Of a stretch of 39,987 nucleotides of DNA, positions 5,636 to 12,561 are shown piece by piece. The position numbers and the translations under genes were made by a program. Each line of letters begins with the position of its first letter. Position 1 is the first letter of the stretch. The notes under the pieces were generated by a model. That model saw only the letters and a program-made list of their open reading frames with translations, ran no database searches and was not told the DNA's origin. The stretch lies in assembly GCF_000170915.1 (NCBI RefSeq), contig NZ_ABCT01000021.1:1-39987 (forward strand), in the 5' to 3' direction. Origin of the DNA: Limnobacter sp. MED105 (lineage in GTDB: Bacteria; Pseudomonadota; Gammaproteobacteria; Burkholderiales; Burkholderiaceae_B).

Positions 5636-6511
5636 TCAGTATATTCTGGACTCGCCAGCCGGGCGGGTTTTGAACCGCTTGTGCAACCACAAGTATTGCG
5701 GAATGTTGTCTTTCACCCAAGACTCAATGTGATGATTCATAACTTGCGTGGATTGAGTGTCATCGTCCAATGGAAAGTTAGGCAAGGGTTCATGAATATG
5801 AATGCTGTAACGCCCATTGCTATATTTGGTCGTGACCGGCACGACCTGCGCCTGAAGCAACTTGGACAGCCGAGCCACCGCCGTAACAGTAGCGGCTTTC
5901 ACGCCAAAAAAGGTAACAAACACAGAGTCGCGCTCACCGAAATCCATATCGGGCAGATAGTACAAAGGACGCCCTTTTTTCATGGCGGCCAGCAATGGAC
6001 GCACACCCTGTTGGCGAGACAACAGCAATTGATCTCCAAACTTGGAACGTCCTTCCAATATCAGCGAATTCAACACCGGATTCTTCTGGTTTGAATACAT
6101 GGTAACCATATCGATTTCAAGGCACAGGCGACTCCATGCTGCATCGAGTCCCAAAAAATGTGGAGCCAGAAAAATGGTTGGCGATGTCGAATCAAGAACG
6201 CTCAAAGCATCCGGGTTTTCAATTAGCACCCGATCACGTACTACTTTTTCATTGCCTGCCCACAACCAAGCCCGGTCCAGAAAGGTGCGTAAGTAAAGGT
6301 AAATGTGAGCCACAGCCCAACGGATGCGCTGGAGCTGCGCCGCGTCAGGAAAACACAGAGCAAGATTCGTGAGTGCCACGGTTCGGCGTTCACGAGCCAA
6401 GGCGAACAAGAGCATAGCCAACAACATCGAGATTGACGAGGAAATCAGCCTGTAGGCAGAAAATGGTAGCCGCGCAAGTGCGAACCAGATTGAGATCAAA
6501 AATTGAGTCAC
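5636..6511 (-). CDS. Lipid A biosynthesis late acyltransferase (LpxL/HtrB family), second copy in the pair
   Basis: Inner-membrane enzyme that adds a secondary acyl chain from acyl-ACP to a lipid A precursor. The 291-residue protein has a hydrophobic N-terminal anchor (about 1-38) followed by RERRTVALTNLALCFP, the usual start of the catalytic domain. The HX4D catalytic motif is present as APHFLGLDA (His118, Asp123), with YYLPDMDFG and FFGVKAATVTAVARL further on. The start overlaps the preceding paralogue by 4 bases (ATGA), implying translational coupling. Which of the two genes adds the first or second acyl chain cannot be told from sequence, so no numbered symbol is assigned. Confidence 0.9.
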   Translation of the reverse strand: MTQFLISIWFALARLPFSAYRLISSSISMLLAMLLFALARERRTVALTNLALCFPDAAQLQRIRWAVAHIYLYLRTFLDRAWLWAGNEKVVRDRVLIENPDALSVLDSTSPTIFLAPHFLGLDAAWSRLCLEIDMVTMYSNQKNPVLNSLILEGRSKFGDQLLLSRQQGVRPLLAAMKKGRPLYYLPDMDFGERDSVFVTFFGVKAATVTAVARLSKLLQAQVVPVTTKYSNGRYSIHIHEPLPNFPLDDDTQSTQVMNHHIESWVKDNIPQYLWLHKRFKTRPAGESRIY

Positions 6512-7374
6512 GATTGCCCTTGCTGGCCCTGTTGGCCTTTGGGAGGTTTGTAACGTTCATAGCCCCAATAATACTGCTCAGGATGCATCAGAATCAGCTT
6601 TTCCATAGCCGCATTGACTTGTGCGGCGGCCTCGACAGGATCCTCACTGAGCGACTCGGGGCCTTGATACAACTCGAGGCAAAAACCTTGTCCGCCCGGC
6701 TTCCTGTAACCAATGGCCAAAACAATTGATGCGCCAGTCGCATGGTGGAGTCGGCCAGGCAAAGTCATGGTGTATGCGGGCTGACCAAACATGGGAGCCC
6801 AAACCCCCTCCCCCTGAGCGGGAACCTGGTCAGGCAACATGCCGACTGCCTCCCCTCTTTTCAGCGCCTTGAGCAGGATTTTCACACCCCCAAGCGTGGT
6901 GGGAGCCAGAGCGACGTTGTCGCGCGCACGGCTGTCTTCGATAATATCTTGAAGTTCCGCCTTGCGATTTGGGCGATACAACACAGTGATGGGTGCACGG
7001 GTTGAAAAAATTTGGGCGGTTGACTCAAAACTCCCCATGTGCGGAGTCAAAAAAATAATGCCTTTCCCTTTTGCTTGAGCCCTTTGAACAACGTCCCAGC
7101 CGGTTATGTCAGTACATCTCGCTGCGCCCCGCTGCGTAGACAAACCCCACAGAAAAGGGAGCTCCAGTAGCGCCATTCCAGCATGCTTGACGGAGCCCTT
7201 CACAGCACCGAGACGCGCTGATTCGTTATGTGGAAAAGCAATTTTGGAGTGAATTTCAATTTTGCGACGGTAGCTGGCCGACAAACCATATACCGCCCAC
7301 CCCAACCACGCACCAAGTGCGTGCAGGACAGGCAAAGGAAAAACTGACAACGCTTTAAACAAATTTTTGATCAT
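6508..7374 (-). CDS. Lipid A biosynthesis late acyltransferase (LpxL/HtrB family), first copy
   Basis: Paralogue of the next gene in the same operon. It has 288 residues from the ATG at 7374 (MIKNLFKALSVFP). The motif TPHMGSFE supplies the HX4E catalytic pair (His112, Glu117). An N-terminal hydrophobic segment (about 8-30) and RPNRKAELQ and GMLPDQVPAQGEGVW blocks match the family. A longer frame to 7455 exists, but it would run through the SAM-II aptamer of the divergent metK leader and add 27 residues unlike the family, so I reject it. The C-terminus has a small GQQGQQGQS repeat. The pair of adjacent acyltransferases fits hexa-acylated lipid A production. Confidence 0.9.
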   Translation of the reverse strand: MIKNLFKALSVFPLPVLHALGAWLGWAVYGLSASYRRKIEIHSKIAFPHNESARLGAVKGSVKHAGMALLELPFLWGLSTQRGAARCTDITGWDVVQRAQAKGKGIIFLTPHMGSFESTAQIFSTRAPITVLYRPNRKAELQDIIEDSRARDNVALAPTTLGGVKILLKALKRGEAVGMLPDQVPAQGEGVWAPMFGQPAYTMTLPGRLHHATGASIVLAIGYRKPGGQGFCLELYQGPESLSEDPVEAAAQVNAAMEKLILMHPEQYYWGYERYKPPKGQQGQQGQS

Positions 7375-7400
7375 GGGGCAGATTGTAACCAGTACGCGCT

Positions 7401-7428
7401 TTGCCTTCGTCCCCAAATGTTGTATATT
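7401..7428 (+). promoter_or_regulatory. Candidate metK promoter
   Basis: TTGCCT (7401-7406) and TATATT (7423-7428) are separated by 16 bases. The predicted start of transcription, about 7435, falls on the first stem of the SAM-II-like aptamer, which is the usual arrangement for that class. The elements lie in the gap before the divergent acyltransferase gene. Confidence 0.5.
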
Positions 7429-7431
7429 TCT

Positions 7432-7490
7432 CAAGTTCGCTGAGTTAAATGACAACTTGCGGGGCGAACTAAAACAAATCTGCTAAAGCG
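7432..7490 (+). ncRNA. SAM-II-type riboswitch upstream of metK
   Basis: The stretch folds as a SAM-II H-type pseudoknot. P1 is AGTTCGC (7434-7440) with GCGAACT (7464-7470), a perfect 7-bp stem. The loop begins TGAGTTAAAT, like the conserved TGATTTAA of the class. The second helix pairs CTTGC in the loop (7456-7460) with GC (7482-7483) and AAG (7486-7488), flanking the unpaired T-A of the conserved GCTAAAG element. These elements, their order and spacing match the SAM-II class known mainly from alphaproteobacteria, where SAM binding turns off methionine/SAM genes. It ends about 50 bases before the metK ribosome-binding site (ggag at 7541-7544), so how binding is coupled to expression is not obvious. 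No covariance-model search was run. Confidence 0.75.
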
Positions 7491-7551
7491 TCGCCGGGCT
7501 TCAATTGAACATGGCGGCAGTAATAACCCCTTGTTTTATTGGAGCTTTTCA

Positions 7552-8718
7552 ATGTCTAACGAATTTTTCTTTACCTCTGAGTCCGTGTCGGAGGGCCATC
7601 CGGACAAGGTTGCCGACCAAATTTCTGACGCGGTTCTAGACGCGATTCTCGAACAAGACCCCACAGCACGTGTAGCTGCCGAAACACTGACCAACACTGG
7701 TCTGGTGGTGATGGCCGGTGAAATCACGACCACTGCCCAAGTAAACTACATCGACGTCGCGCGCGAGACACTGAAGAACATTGGCTACGACAACGGCGAT
7801 TTCGGTATTGATTACAAAAGCTGTGCGGTGATGGTGTGCTACGACCGCCAAAGCCCGGACATTGCGCAAGGTGTAGACAAGGCGCACGACAACGATTTAG
7901 ATCAAGGTGCCGGCGACCAGGGTTTGATGTTTGGTTACGCGGTGAATGAAACCCGCGAATTGATGCCACTGGCCATTAGCCTTTCACACCAGCTGGTTCA
8001 ACGTCAGAGCCTGCTTCGCAAGGACGGGCGCTTGTCTTGGCTACGCCCTGATGCGAAATCCCAGGTCACGATCAAATATGTGGATGGAAAGCCTTTCTGT
8101 ATCGATACCGTGGTGCTTTCAACCCAGCATTCGCCAGACATCGAGTTGGCGACATTGCGCGAGGCGGTGATTGAAGAGGTGATCAAGCCTGTGTTACCTA
8201 AAGAACTGGTGAAAGGAAACATCAACTTTTTGGTGAACCCAACCGGGCGCTTTGTGATTGGCGGCCCACAGGGTGACTGTGGTTTGACAGGCCGCAAGAT
8301 TATTGTGGACACGTATGGCGGTGCTGCACCACACGGCGGAGGCGCATTCTCGGGCAAGGACCCTTCCAAGGTAGACCGCTCCGCTGCGTATGCTGGGCGT
8401 TACGTAGCCAAGAACATTGTTGCAGCGGGCTTGGCTGAGAAGTGTCTGGTCCAGGTGAGCTACGCGATCGGCGTGGCACGCCCTACTTCAATTATGGTGA
8501 ACACCTTCGGCACCGGAAAAATTGAAGACAGTGCAATTACCGAATTGGTGAGCGCTCACTTCGACCTGCGCCCCAAGGGTATTGTACAAATGCTGGATTT
8601 GCTGCGCCCGATTTATGCAAAAACGGCAGCGTACGGACACTTTGGTCGCGAAGAACCCGAATTTAGCTGGGAACGTACTGACAAGGCAGAGGCTTTGAAG
8701 GCTGCAGCAGGTATCTGA
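7552..8718 (+). CDS. metK: S-adenosylmethionine synthetase
   Basis: Makes SAM from methionine and ATP. From the ATG at 7552 ([19 protein letters not shown]) the protein has 388 residues, close to the E. coli length. A frame opening at 7531 adds seven residues without a ribosome-binding site, whereas ggag (7541-7544) precedes 7552. Signature motifs are [25 protein letters not shown] (ATP/methionine loop) and the phosphate-binding [16 protein letters not shown]. It is the first gene of a methyl-cycle operon (metK-ahcY-tlyA-metF), and a SAM-II-like aptamer in its leader predicts repression by its own product. Confidence 0.98.
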
Positions 8719-8733
8719 TTAAACGGACGTTCT

Positions 8734-8771
8734 ACAGGAAGGGTTGGCTGAATACCGCTTGGCCTTCCTGT
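8734..8771 (+). terminator. Inverted repeat after metK (possible weak terminator)
   Basis: ACAGGAAGG (8734-8742) and CCTTCCTGT (8763-8771) are perfect 9-base complements around a 20-base loop, 15 bases after the metK stop. No T tract follows, so it is not a classical terminator. It overlaps the candidate -35 of the ahcY promoter and could instead be an RNA-stabilising or processing hairpin. Confidence 0.4.
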
Positions 8772-8788
8772 GCTAACCCTGTTACAAT
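8759..8788 (+). promoter_or_regulatory. Candidate ahcY promoter
   Basis: TTGGCC (8759-8764) and TACAAT (8783-8788) are separated by 18 bases. The expected transcript start, about 8795, coincides with the 5' edge of the SAH aptamer, so ahcY probably has its own promoter besides any read-through from metK. Confidence 0.5.
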
Positions 8789-8794
8789 TTGTGC

Positions 8795-8870
8795 CGTTCG
8801 AGGAGCGTTGCGACACACCCATGCTTTTTTGGGGTGCTAGGCTCGAACAAGAAATAAACAACGGCGCTCA
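8795..8870 (+). ncRNA. SAH riboswitch upstream of ahcY
   Basis: The element shows the conserved core of the S-adenosylhomocysteine riboswitch. P1 is GTTCGAG (8796-8802) with CTCGAAC (8842-8848). GAGCG (8803-8807) inside the conserved GAGGAGCGTTGCGAC forms the pseudoknot with CGCTC (8865-8869) in the conserved ACGGCGCTCACG. The P2 hairpin is CACCC (8816-8820) with GGGTG (8832-8836), closed by the GCTAGGCTCG block. This class senses SAH and switches on SAH-recycling genes, typically ahcY in betaproteobacteria and pseudomonads. It sits 38 bases before the ahcY start codon and close to its strong Shine-Dalgarno (8896-8903), which allows control at translation. Confidence 0.92.
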
Positions 8871-8907
8871 CGCTTCTTTCTTTATGAACTTTAAAAAGGA
8901 GGGCGTG

Positions 8908-10335
8908 ATGAACGCCATTGCAAAACCAATCACCGCTACCGGCGAAAACGACTTCTTCGTAGCCGACATCAACCTGGCCGACTTTGGCCGCAAAGAAATC
9001 GCAATTGCAGAAACCGAAATGCCTGGCTTGATGGCCATTCGCAAGGAATTTGCTGCATCCCAGCCTTTGAAAGGCGCCCGCATTACCGGTTCACTGCACA
9101 TGACCATTCAAACAGCGGTGCTGATTGAAACCCTTGCAGCACTGGGCGCAGAAGTGCGTTGGGCCTCTTGCAACATTTATTCAACACAAGACCATGCAGC
9201 CGCAGCAATCGCAGCCGCTGGTATTCCTGTGTTTGCGTTCAAGGGCGAATCACTGACTGATTACTGGAATTTCACACACCGCATTTTCGAATGGGCAGAC
9301 GGTGGTTATTCCAACATGATTCTGGACGATGGTGGCGATGCGACCATGTTGCTGCACTTGGGTACCAAGGCAGAAAAAGACATCAGCGTACTGAACAACC
9401 CTGGCAGCGAAGAAGAAATTTGCCTGTTCGAGTCAATCAAGAAAACGCTGAAAACAGACCCAACCTGGTATTCAACACGCCTGAAAGAGATCAAGGGCGT
9501 GACTGAAGAAACTACAACTGGTGTTCACCGCTTGTATGAAATGCACAAGAAGGGCGAATTGGCCTTCCCTGCAATCAACGTGAACGACTCAGTAACCAAG
9601 TCGAAATTCGACAATCTGTATGGCTGCCGTGAATCGCTGGTTGACGGTATCAAGCGTGCTACAGACGTAATGATCGCCGGTAAAGTGGCTGTTGTTGCCG
9701 GTTACGGCGATGTGGGCAAGGGTTCTGCACAGGCATTGCGCGCCCTGTCAGCCCAGGTTTGGGTTACTGAAATTGACCCAATTTGCGCACTGCAAGCAGC
9801 AATGGAAGGCTACCGCGTGGTGACTATGGATTATGCAGCTGACAAAGCTGACATTTTCGTGACGGCCACAGGCAACAAAGACATCATTACCCATGACCAC
9901 ATGGTGAAAATGAAGGACCAAGCCATTGTTTGTAACATTGGTCACTTTGACAACGAAATCGACATTGCCAGCGTGAAGAAGTACCAGTGGGAAAACATCA
10001 AGCCACAGGTTGATCACATTATTTTCCCCGATGGCAAGCGCATCATCATGTTGGCTGAAGGCCGTTTGGTGAACCTGGGCTGCGGCACAGGCCACCCCTC
10101 GTTCGTGATGTCCTCCAGCTTTGCCAATCAAACCATTGCACAAATCGAGCTGTGGACGCAAAACGAGAAGTATCCAGTGGGCGTGTATGTGTTGCCCAAG
10201 CACCTGGACGAAAAAGTGGCCCGCCTGCACCTGATGAAAATTGGCGCCCAGCTGACAGAGCTGAGCCCATCGCAAGCAAGCTACATTGGCGTGAAGCAAG
10301 ACGGCCCTTACAAGCCAGACCACTACCGCTATTAA
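8908..10335 (+). CDS. ahcY: Adenosylhomocysteinase (SAH hydrolase)
   Basis: Hydrolyses SAH to homocysteine and adenosine using tightly bound NAD, which relieves product inhibition of methyltransferases. The ATG at 8908 ([29 protein letters not shown]) is preceded by aaggaggg (8896-8903). A longer frame to a GTG at 8770 runs through the SAH riboswitch and is rejected. The protein has 475 residues, the bacterial/eukaryotic long form. Visible are the substrate region [17 protein letters not shown], the NAD-binding [27 protein letters not shown], and the C-terminal KPDHYRY that reaches across to the neighbouring subunit's NAD site. tlyA follows after 18 bases and metF after that. Confidence 0.98.
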
Positions 10336-10353
10336 TTAGGGAAAGAGCTACCT

Positions 10354-11154
10354 TTGCGCGCTGACCTTGCCTTGGTTGAAAAAGGCCTGTGTCCCTCACG
10401 GGCGCAGGCACAAATATTGATCGAACAAGGAAAAGTGCAAGTGCGCAACGGTGTAGTTCAGGCACCTGTTGTTGTAAAAAAAGCATCGCAGCAGATCGAG
10501 CCATTCATGACTCTTGAATTGATTGACTGCGATGCACCCAGTTTTGTATCCCGTGGTGGATTGAAATTACACCACGCACTTGAAACCACCAAGATTGAAG
10601 TTCACGCAAGGCGTTGCATCGACTTGGGACAATCCACTGGCGGCTTCACTGACTGCCTACTTCAGAAAGGTGCATCGAGTGTCGTGGGTATTGACGTTGG
10701 GCGGGAACAGTTACACCCTCGCTTGAGAGGACACCAAGCTGTGATGGCCCTGGAGGGGATCAACCTGTACAAAATCAATGCAGGTGATCTCGAAAAGGAC
10801 ATTGCCGCGCTGAAACCAGAATTCATGCCATTTGACCTGGCGGTGGCGGATTTGAGCTTCATCTCTCTGCGCAAGGTGTTGCCCAATATTGCAAAGCTGA
10901 TGCCTGCAAGGTGTGAAGGTTTGTTTCTGGTTAAACCTCAATTTGAAGTTGGGCCGGAAAACATCGGTAAAAATGGTTTGGTGAAAAATCTCGATGACCT
11001 GATCGAACAACTAGAGAACGATATAAAGACTTGCTGCGCCCAACTCGACTTGACTGTGAAAGATTTTTTCCAGTGCGAGTTGAAAGGTGGCGACGGCAAT
11101 CAGGAATATTTTGTGTACGCGACGAAAAGTATCGATGTTGCGACCAACCACTAA
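10354..11154 (+). CDS. tlyA: TlyA-family rRNA 2'-O-methyltransferase
   Basis: The protein has 266 residues: an N-terminal S4 RNA-binding domain (about 1-60, RADLALVEKGLCPSRAQAQ) and an FtsJ-like SAM-dependent methyltransferase domain (about 65-250). SAM motif I is DLGQSTGGFTDCLLQKGA; VADLSFISLRKVLP and FLVKPQFEVG are the other family blocks. TlyA proteins methylate ribose of cytidine in 16S and/or 23S rRNA. Their older label haemolysin is not supported by this architecture. The start is a TTG at 10354 behind agggaaagag (about 10338-10347), the only start that keeps the S4 domain. Sitting between ahcY and metF, it is a SAM-consuming enzyme inside the SAH-controlled unit. Confidence 0.9.
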   Translation: MRADLALVEKGLCPSRAQAQILIEQGKVQVRNGVVQAPVVVKKASQQIEPFMTLELIDCDAPSFVSRGGLKLHHALETTKIEVHARRCIDLGQSTGGFTDCLLQKGASSVVGIDVGREQLHPRLRGHQAVMALEGINLYKINAGDLEKDIAALKPEFMPFDLAVADLSFISLRKVLPNIAKLMPARCEGLFLVKPQFEVGPENIGKNGLVKNLDDLIEQLENDIKTCCAQLDLTVKDFFQCELKGGDGNQEYFVYATKSIDVATNH

Positions 11155-11173
11155 CTCTGTGAATGAATACACC

Positions 11174-11995
11174 ATGATGAATATCAGCTTTGAGTTTTTC
11201 CCCGCGAAAACAGACGAAGGTGCAGAGAAGTTGCGCGCCACGCGTGAAAAACTGTCCGAAAGAAAGCCAGAGTTTTTTTCCGTGACATTTGGGGCCGGCG
11301 GGACAACCCAAGACGGAACACTGTCCACTGTGCTTGAAATCAAGGCGGCTGGTGAGGAAGCAGCACCGCATTTGTCATGCGTTGGATCTTCCAAAGAAAA
11401 GGTAGCCGCATTGCTAAAGCAGTACAAAGAACACGGAATTAAGCGCATTGTTGCGCTTCGTGGCGATTTGCCTTCCGGCATGCTTGAGACAGGCTCATTT
11501 CGATATGCCAGCGAGTTGGTCGAGTTCATTCGTCGGGAAACTGGCGATCACTTTTTCATTGAGGTGGCCGCTTATCCAGAAACACATCCCCAAGCGAAAA
11601 GCCCGGCGGCCGACGTAGACGCTTTTGTTCACAAAGTGAACTGCGGCGCGAACTCTGCAATTACCCAATACTTTTTCAACTTGGATGCCTTTTTGTACTT
11701 CCGGGATCAGGTTCAACACCGAATTTCAATCCCATTGATTCCAGGTATTATGCCTGTGACCAATTTCAGTCAGCTTGCTCGTTTTTCAGATGCATGTGGT
11801 GCAGAAATTCCACGTTGGATGCGCAATCGCTTGCAACATTTCGGAGATGATCGCGAATCGATTCGCGCATTTGGATTGGAAGTTGTATCGAATCTGTGCG
11901 AACAACTTATTCGAGAAGGAGCACCCGGATTGCACTTCTACACCATGAACAATGCGCAGCCAACCTTGGCGATTCTGGATCAAATCGGTTATTAA
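11174..11995 (+). CDS. metF: Methylenetetrahydrofolate reductase
   Basis: FAD-dependent reduction of 5,10-methylene-THF to 5-methyl-THF, the methyl donor for homocysteine remethylation. From the ATG at 11174 (MMNISFEFFPAKT; a second ATG follows at 11177) it has 273 residues. Upstream in-frame codons to 11087 would overlap tlyA and add unrelated sequence. Family motifs in order: SFEFFPAKTDEG, FSVTFGAGGTTQDGT, IVALRGDLP, EVAAYPETHPQA, CGANSAITQYFFNLDAF, PGIMPVTNFSQL and LHFYTMNNAQPTLAI. It is the last gene of the metK-ahcY-tlyA-metF run. Its end overlaps the convergent 5-FCL gene by 4 bases, and no terminator is visible. Confidence 0.97.
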   Translation: MMNISFEFFPAKTDEGAEKLRATREKLSERKPEFFSVTFGAGGTTQDGTLSTVLEIKAAGEEAAPHLSCVGSSKEKVAALLKQYKEHGIKRIVALRGDLPSGMLETGSFRYASELVEFIRRETGDHFFIEVAAYPETHPQAKSPAADVDAFVHKVNCGANSAITQYFFNLDAFLYFRDQVQHRISIPLIPGIMPVTNFSQLARFSDACGAEIPRWMRNRLQHFGDDRESIRAFGLEVVSNLCEQLIREGAPGLHFYTMNNAQPTLAILDQIGY

Positions 11996-12561
11996 GAAGT
12001 GCCTGAGTGAGAGAAAATCAGCTCTCGCTCAGTCAATACGTAATCGAGCAGCTCATCGTGTTGTTCTGAAAAATTGTCTTGAAATTCAGTCAATGCGTAG
12101 GCCACGCCCACAGTAACTGGCTTCTCGGGCATTTGACTCAAGGTGCGATCGTACCAACCTGCACCATATCCGAGACGGGCCCCTTCCCGGTGAAAAGCTA
12201 GACAAGGAATCAGTAACACATCGGGCTGAACCCACGACTTGAATTTTGGAACTGGAATATCGTATCGTCCGGGTTCCAATTCGTCGTTGGGTGCAAACTG
12301 CGCAAACTTCAAAAACGCACCTGTTGGCGACTCACAACATACAGGCAAAGCCCAGTGAAAGCCTTTGAGTGCCAAATTATTCATGATCTCCAGTACATTC
12401 GGCTCGCGACGTGTGGGATAGAACAGACCTACAGTGCAAGGCTGGAATGTTTGGAGTAGAGTTGACAAAGACGCCGAAATCTCTTGGCTCAACGCTTTGA
12501 TTTCTTCGGGCTGCAGCTCATTTCGATAGGCTAAGGCAGTTTGCCGCAATGATTTTTTCAT
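11992..12561 (-). CDS. 5-formyltetrahydrofolate cyclo-ligase
   Basis: ATP-dependent conversion of 5-formyl-THF to 5,10-methenyl-THF, which rescues folate for one-carbon metabolism. The 189-residue length is typical. The N-terminus has the basic KKSLRQTALAYRNEL helix. FYPTRREPN, the LIPCLAFHREGARLGYGAGWYDRTL block (ATP/metal loop) and VGVAYALTEFQ are characteristic. It converges on metF with a 4-base overlap and diverges from slt with start codons that touch or overlap (CATG at 12559-12562). Folate chemistry links it functionally to metF although it is on the other strand. Confidence 0.93.
   Translation of the reverse strand: MKKSLRQTALAYRNELQPEEIKALSQEISASLSTLLQTFQPCTVGLFYPTRREPNVLEIMNNLALKGFHWALPVCCESPTGAFLKFAQFAPNDELEPGRYDIPVPKFKSWVQPDVLLIPCLAFHREGARLGYGAGWYDRTLSQMPEKPVTVGVAYALTEFQDNFSEQHDELLDYVLTERELIFSHSGTS

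Follow-up and report, generated by a model that had tools for sequence, protein, structure and literature searches.

The closest described systems are RNA elements at genes of S-adenosylmethionine (SAM) metabolism. SAM-V riboswitches and, by proposal, the SAM-II riboswitches of metX hide the Shine–Dalgarno (SD) sequence upon SAM binding (PMC6061858; papers are cited here and below for the parts covered), and 44 tandem SAM-II pairs have been reported, some with the second aptamer at the ribosome-binding site (PMC9481103), so parts of the subtype described below may already be known under the name SAM-II. In Chlorobi, an RNA element precedes metK and ahcY operons (PMC2864571). For the beta-proteobacteria, PMC4239095 places metK under no known methionine regulator and reports that its own search for a metK element failed. 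A footnote in PMC8814607 states that regulatory elements suspected in the 5′ untranslated regions (5′UTRs) of Burkholderia thailandensis metK, metX and metZ were confirmed (unpublished data), and to repress through the metX 5′UTR the authors of this 2022 paper used 0.05 mM methionine; its main text contains neither 'SAM riboswitch' nor 'S-adenosylmethionine', and the parts covered give no structure or ligand for the metK leader. Regulation through the Burkholderia metK leader is already claimed in print there, without data or mechanism in those parts. In the literature covered, which includes PMC7736828 and PMC10853860, supplements aside, no SAM-II element was identified before metK in this group. 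Here we describe the metK leader of Limnobacter sp. MED105 in a window of 39,987 nucleotides (nt; contig NZ_ABCT01000021.1, positions 1 to 39,987 of the forward strand), in which metK, encoding SAM synthetase, is followed by ahcY, encoding S-adenosylhomocysteine (SAH) hydrolase.

As judged by comparative sequence evidence, the metK leader carries a subtype of the SAM-II aptamer that the alphaproteobacterial Rfam model does not recognise, and which we regard as real despite its Rfam score. SAM synthetase in the window's family, and in Burkholderiales relatives known by name, gains a candidate regulator with a name, and the naturally occurring variants allow tests of which pocket bases SAM-II aptamers need. 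A first-pass annotation, made from the sequence alone, had proposed a SAM-II-like aptamer before metK and an SAH riboswitch before ahcY within one operon, and had considered their pairing to be the unusual point.

The metK leader and its kinship with SAM-II

The aptamer and its gene have the following layout:

7433–7496, plus strand: putative SAM-II subtype aptamer of metK
7434–7441 with 7463–7470, plus strand: stem P1, eight pairs
7456–7460 (CUUGC) with 7482–7488 (GCUAAAG), plus strand: predicted pseudoknot helix P2b, mostly invariant
7451–7453 (GAC) with 7490–7492 (GUC), plus strand: predicted pseudoknot helix P2a, mostly invariant, with few compensatory changes
7552–8718, plus strand: metK, SAM synthetase, 388 amino acids (Pfam S-AdoMet_synt N, M and C)

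Leaders of metK were collected from 30 loci in 151 genomes of the family, the window among them, and from 80 named loci, giving 110 in total. A strongly conserved block precedes metK in 106 of these; the four leaders without the search pattern (L019, L030, L059 and L109) were dropped, and one of them, L030, shows the motif with a single base altered. The pattern fixes TTAA, GACAACTT, C and AAAGCGT, leaving only SAM-II positions 8, 9, 10, 22, 43, 44 and 52 free. Removal of near-identical cores retained 57 of the 106 leaders, and 40 of these make up alignment A1; the leaders in A1, as in the pairing and −10-box sets used below, are related, and shuffle p-values obtained from them are not independent. 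The first-pass annotation had suggested looking for compensatory stem changes in relatives, and these were found for P1, where all eight pairs change on both sides within A1. Over the whole structure, 93.8% of the cells in A1 are paired, compared with 34–42% when the partners are slid by 1–3 columns. The pseudoknot pairs in every row; six of its eight pairs never vary, and the variation includes one compensatory change (L108) and one G-U pair (L043).

The P1 loop opens with GAGUUAA, corresponding to SAM-II positions 8–14 with U10 replaced by G; of the pocket bases listed as completely conserved in PMC3764141, 13 in number, the other 12 are kept in the window. Position 10 is G in 103 of the 106 pattern-selected leaders. 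Among 50 matches of all types found by model R1 without the pattern, the equivalents of U11, U12, U20 and U21 are U in 49 of 49 ungapped cases, GCUAAAG is invariant (50/50), and the equivalent of U10 is T in 37, G in 11, A in one and a gap in one.

The held-out model R2 comprises 26 leaders, excluding the window's genus and L016 and including L040 (86% MetK identity). Searched against the genome, it places the aptamer at 7433–7496 with 72.3 bits (E = 7.5e-14 genome-wide), the next place scoring 15.9 bits; R1, whose training set contains the window leader, gives that leader 76 bits. Rfam at its gathering threshold returned no SAM_alpha (RF00521) hit in 27 motif-bearing metK leaders (7 + 20 loci). 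RF00521 was also run on 20 relatives, including 12 from the window's genus, and found nothing above its cut-off, so the genus holds no classic SAM-II at threshold. Comparison of 7380–7560 with a plasmid collection by blastn gave no match.

Classic SAM-II RNAs are found in relatives before metX, before metZ and as the first member of tandems. The metX leaders (L119–L122) score 45.5–50.4 bits with RF00521, the gene at L119 being MetX by NCBIfam, and at the metZ leaders all five tested open reading frames (ORFs) encode O-succinylhomoserine sulfhydrylase. Across the 13 metZ and tandem loci, RF00521 has a hit at E ≤ 0.1 in 11, three of them over the cut-off, and none in L186 and L195. A first pattern for the classic RNAs matched three only and was replaced by another. 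Aligned with each other, the classic and metK types have P1, the G-A-N-U-U loop, CUUGC and GCUAAAG in common. In this joint alignment with the metX, metZ and tandem RNAs, 87.2% of cells are paired; sliding lowers this to 34–49%. Two of the three P2a pairs change on both sides, which makes two of the eight P2 pairs overall. Model R3, built from 21 classic SAM-II RNAs with no metK-type rows, scores the window leader highest of all places in the genome, at 32.7 bits, ahead of a runner-up at 13.2. In a set of 12 sources that includes the window, it recovers the leader in 11 and misses that of L108. Its metX rows, L119–L122, were found by RF00521 itself. These alignments link the metK leader to accepted SAM-II sequences through intermediates, and we file it, on that footing, as a SAM-II subtype that lacks two formal features, a score above the Rfam threshold and U10. 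The SAM-II-like aptamer of the first-pass annotation is borne out by comparison (R2, P1 covariation and R3), not by Rfam.

Aptamers of these types also occur in other settings. At L193, L194, L195 and L199, in other families of the order, tandem SAM-II-type aptamers lie some hundred bases before transporter genes assigned to MatE by Pfam (PF01554), and the second aptamer is of the metK type in all four. The tandems were also read as L153–L156, with an RF00521 hit in the first aptamer of L153 and L156 and none in L154. Control of a MATE transporter by tandem SAM-II aptamers, which this arrangement would imply, is unexpected. Aptamers of the metK type were seen in more distant Gammaproteobacteria (L215–L218); in L216–L218 they stand second, after a classic type and a terminator-like hairpin identified by eye. 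For the ORFs downstream in L215 and L218, the hits are weak, ATPase-like and under the NCBIfam cut-offs. Genes downstream of L136, L144, L148 and L152 were placed by approximate coordinates and contribute to none of the counts given here. Sub-threshold matches to RF02424 (Bp2_287, 'Burkholderia sRNA') were obtained at nine loci (L158, L160, L165, L135, L176, L182, L191, L216 and L218), always on the strand opposite to the SAM-II-type hit, and RF02424 may represent a SAM-II leader of betaproteobacteria read in reverse complement.

The SAH riboswitch, promoters and distribution

The promoter-like elements, and the features that follow metK, are:

7401–7428, plus strand: metK promoter-like element from a sigma-70-like scan, −35 TTGCCT (7401–7406), 16 nt, −10 TATATT (7423–7428)
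8734–8771, plus strand: 9-bp inverted repeat between metK and ahcY, with no T tract after it
8759–8788, plus strand: ahcY promoter-like element from the same scan, TTGGCC, 18 nt, TACAAT
8794–8876, plus strand: SAH riboswitch aptamer
8859–8920, plus strand: predicted stem hiding the ahcY SD (about 8897–8902)
8908–10335, plus strand: ahcY, SAH hydrolase (Pfam AdoHcyase, 496 bits)
10354–11154, plus strand: tlyA-like methyltransferase (Pfam FtsJ and S4 domains)
11174–11995, plus strand: metF, methylenetetrahydrofolate reductase (Pfam MTHFR)

The SAH riboswitch annotated before ahcY passed its check against RF01057: it scores 63.6 bits, the cut-off being 37, with E = 1.4e-9 over the window, and is the sole Rfam element above threshold in the whole window. 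The SAH riboswitch class is an ON switch. In the predicted fold the ahcY SD is almost entirely paired (unpaired, 0.02), and the stem that hides it overlaps the 3′ strand of the aptamer, so SAH binding would open the SD; the predicted fold is consistent with SAH-dependent activation of ahcY.

The scan gave two sigma-70-like hits in 7350–9000, each ending 4–5 nt before its aptamer; a shuffle control on both strands had a mean of 1.0 hits (s.d. 1.1). Across 53 non-redundant metK leaders, −10-like hexamers (5 of 6) occur 0.89 times per leader at 4–7 nt before P1, and at 0.002–0.008 per position elsewhere in the same leaders. For the separate promoter-like elements ending where the aptamers begin, as first annotated, support comes from conservation in the case of metK and from a single consensus match in that of ahcY.

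At E ≤ 1e-4, R1 has matches in 135 of the 151 family genomes. In 134 of these the hit precedes the metK match by 43–150 nt, on the same strand, the remaining genome (G051) having no metK row to compare. The subtype that escapes the standard RNA family model thus stands before metK in 134 of the 151 genomes. Fourteen of the 148 metK matches listed, out of 149, on which these metK-based counts rest, have no R1 hit: six in genus g8, six in genus g23, G050 and G069. The g8 genomes without the motif measure 0.7–0.8 Mb and have metK, and the six g23 genomes have metK without the motif and retain the SAH riboswitch. Beyond the family, R1 matches 130 of 200 genomes of the order at E ≤ 0.1, including classic SAM-II at metZ and tandems, and, at E ≤ 0.001, 22 of 274 genomes of the class, among them the window's own.

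The SAH riboswitch is present in 136 of the 151 family genomes. The row of motif, metK and SAH element falls within 1 kb in 71 of the 151 and within 200 nt in 27; in the window, 79 nt separate the end of the metK match from the SAH element. In 50 further genomes the SAH element is on the same strand, 1–25 kb downstream, and in eight it is on another contig or strand. Among 20 named loci, three have an SAH hit within the flank scanned downstream of metK, which was 3 kb long, or 1.3 kb in the case of L060; these are L116 (Oxalobacteraceae), L117 (Herbaspirillum) and L118 (Janthinobacterium); the Burkholderia, Paraburkholderia, Caballeronia, Pandoraea and Cupriavidus loci among the 20 have no SAH hit in the scanned flank. 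The pairing is thus looser among the named loci. Being common in the family, it is ordinary; what is unusual is that metK itself carries a SAM-II subtype that had gone unrecognised.

The run metK-ahcY-tlyA-metF on the plus strand was annotated correctly, its gene identities being backed by Pfam. On the minus strand, a gene at 6508–7374, which we take from its translation to be lipid A acyltransferase-like, seems to start near 7374, divergent from metK, so that the metK promoter and aptamer occupy the gap. Convergent with metF and overlapping its end is a minus-strand gene at 11992–12561, presumably, from its translation, 5-formyltetrahydrofolate cyclo-ligase-like.

Proposed switch and rival explanations

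Two pairings lie between the aptamer and metK:

7496–7505 with 7538–7547, plus strand: anti-SD strand covering GGAG (7541–7544)
7490–7495 (GUCGCC) with 7513–7518 (GGCGGC), plus strand: possible competing hairpin, taking the 3′ strand of P2a

In the window, GGGCUUCAAU pairs with AUUGGAGCUU in the SD region at −15.7 kcal/mol, and none of 200 shuffles was as low. In a shuffle test on 60 retained leaders, this SD/anti-SD pairing reached p < 0.05 in 19 (median p = 0.07) and the competing hairpin in 32. An intrinsic terminator was considered as the expression platform and rejected, none being listed on the plus strand between the aptamer and metK.

Together these features very probably represent a SAM-II-subtype OFF switch on metK, beside an SAH ON switch with its own promoter. 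The metK aptamer would occupy the transcript from its first bases on. At low SAM, the 3′ strand of the pseudoknot (GCGUC) would be free to pair downstream, the competing hairpin presumably being the ligand-free form, and metK would be translated. With SAM bound, GCUAAAG and GUC would be held in the pseudoknot; since P2a needs GUC, binding would remove the competing pairing and leave the strand just 3′ of the aptamer to pair with the SD region, shutting off metK translation. At the adjoining, separately promoted riboswitch, rising SAH would free the SD and turn on ahcY-tlyA-metF.

Several observations weigh against this reading. RF00521 gives 7426–7509 a score of 13.3 bits, where its cut-off is 36 (E = 1.3 in 301 bases), and in its genome-wide ranking the metK leader is fourth-best, with three places higher, which is no better than chance. 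The Rfam SAM-II search that the first-pass annotation had proposed for this leader thus fell below threshold and, taken alone, would have spoken against the SAM-II half of the proposal; it is outweighed because of the comparative data. U10 is given as completely conserved in SAM-II (PMC3764141), and it is G here. The pseudoknot pairs are nearly invariant across A1; of the 41 rows in the joint set, 11 are unpaired at one varying P2a pair and 7 at the other. The rows of R3 other than L119–L122 were first found through R1, which could tilt R3 towards the metK type. As for the expression platform, SD pairing is weak in several relatives (L016, L021, L033 and L096), the window's own copy of the competing hairpin falls short of significance (p = 0.33), and plain folding of 98 distinct leaders hides the SD in the presence of the 3′ pseudoknot strand (mean unpaired, 0.20) as well as in its absence (0.22). 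Since folding shows no clear difference at the SD, the competing pairings are the basis for the proposed direction of the switch.

The replacement of U10 raises the question of the ligand. A SAM-II relative whose preference had shifted through this change, to SAH, methylthioadenosine or SAM plus SAH, would account for the G in nearly all leaders, and the base touches the uridine that holds the SAM adenine: U8 of SAM-V, taken here as the equivalent of U10, hydrogen-bonds the uridine pairing with the SAM adenine (PMC6061858). The sulfonium-facing uridines U11 and U21 (PMC8525861) are kept in the metK type, however, and base 10 varies within a single type, the second aptamers of tandems having U10 in L196, L199 and L216 and G10 in L129, L135 and L215. 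We consider such a shift improbable, and hold the same low expectation of a subclass with weaker SAH/SAM discrimination, in which product and waste together, as a sum or a ratio, would hold metK back and the SAH switch beside it would open recycling. It is very improbable that the conserved leader senses no ligand and is instead a fixed SD-hiding structure or the target of a protein or small RNA. The SD is predicted to be paired in both states, as a fixed structure would have it, but the most conserved block is the SAM-II ligand pocket, and the sequence of the SD stem differs between lineages.

A further explanation, compatible with the OFF switch on metK, makes metK and ahcY a single operon in which the SAH switch is internal and SAM would also gate the ahcY transcripts. 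The genes share a strand, the three elements follow one another with a gap below 200 nt in the 27 genomes counted above, and the hairpin in the window lacks a T tract. Against this stand the promoter-like element before ahcY, whose −35-like hexamer is overlapped by the 3′ arm of the inverted repeat, and inverted repeats of other sequence seen by eye in the same place in L010, L012, L015, L016 and L040 (in L040 running into eight T), with none evident by eye at this gap in L011 and L014. The SAH unit can, moreover, stand alone, as its position 1–25 kb away on the same strand in 50 genomes indicates. The single operon of the first-pass annotation is accordingly unproven and, in our view, rather unlikely; two adjacent transcription units are likelier.

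Comparison with known systems

The metK type shares with SAM-II (RF00521) the stem P1, the GA-N-UU loop, the CUUGC/GCUAAAG core with a predicted pseudoknot, a predicted P2a, and an association with genes of SAM metabolism. It differs in the change of U10 to G, in having CAA rather than CAG or CCG before CUUGC, in an extra G before the 3′ strand of P1 in most leaders, in its target, metK, and in scoring 23 bits below the cut-off. Many relatives of the metK type also have a hairpin between P1 and the 3′ strand, which the window lacks. The element at 8794–8876 is an ordinary member of the SAH riboswitch family (RF01057) before ahcY, with no notable difference. The SAM/SAH riboswitch (RF01727) and SAM-Chlorobi (RF01724) are likewise RNA elements before metK, with different motifs, and neither has an Rfam match in the metK leader.

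The Rfam SAM-V model (RF01826, which we take to be its accession) has no match in 7300–7600 at E up to 10. SAM-V, described from 'Candidatus Pelagibacter ubique' (PMC2704228), has the same binding core as SAM-II and acts on translation (PMC6061858), and it can be the second member of a tandem after SAM-II (PMC9481103). The metXZ element of Leyn et al. 2014 (PMC4239095) is, like the metK type, an RNA with a pseudoknot at betaproteobacterial methionine genes; it differs in standing at metX and metZ, and the metX copies score here as SAM_alpha. Since L119–L122 and the metZ loci L176, L178, L182, L188 and L192 match RF00521, this 'metXZ element' appears to be SAM-II. The B. thailandensis metK 5′UTR (PMC8814607), in the parts of that paper covered, concerns the same gene in the same bacterial order and is said to be regulatory.

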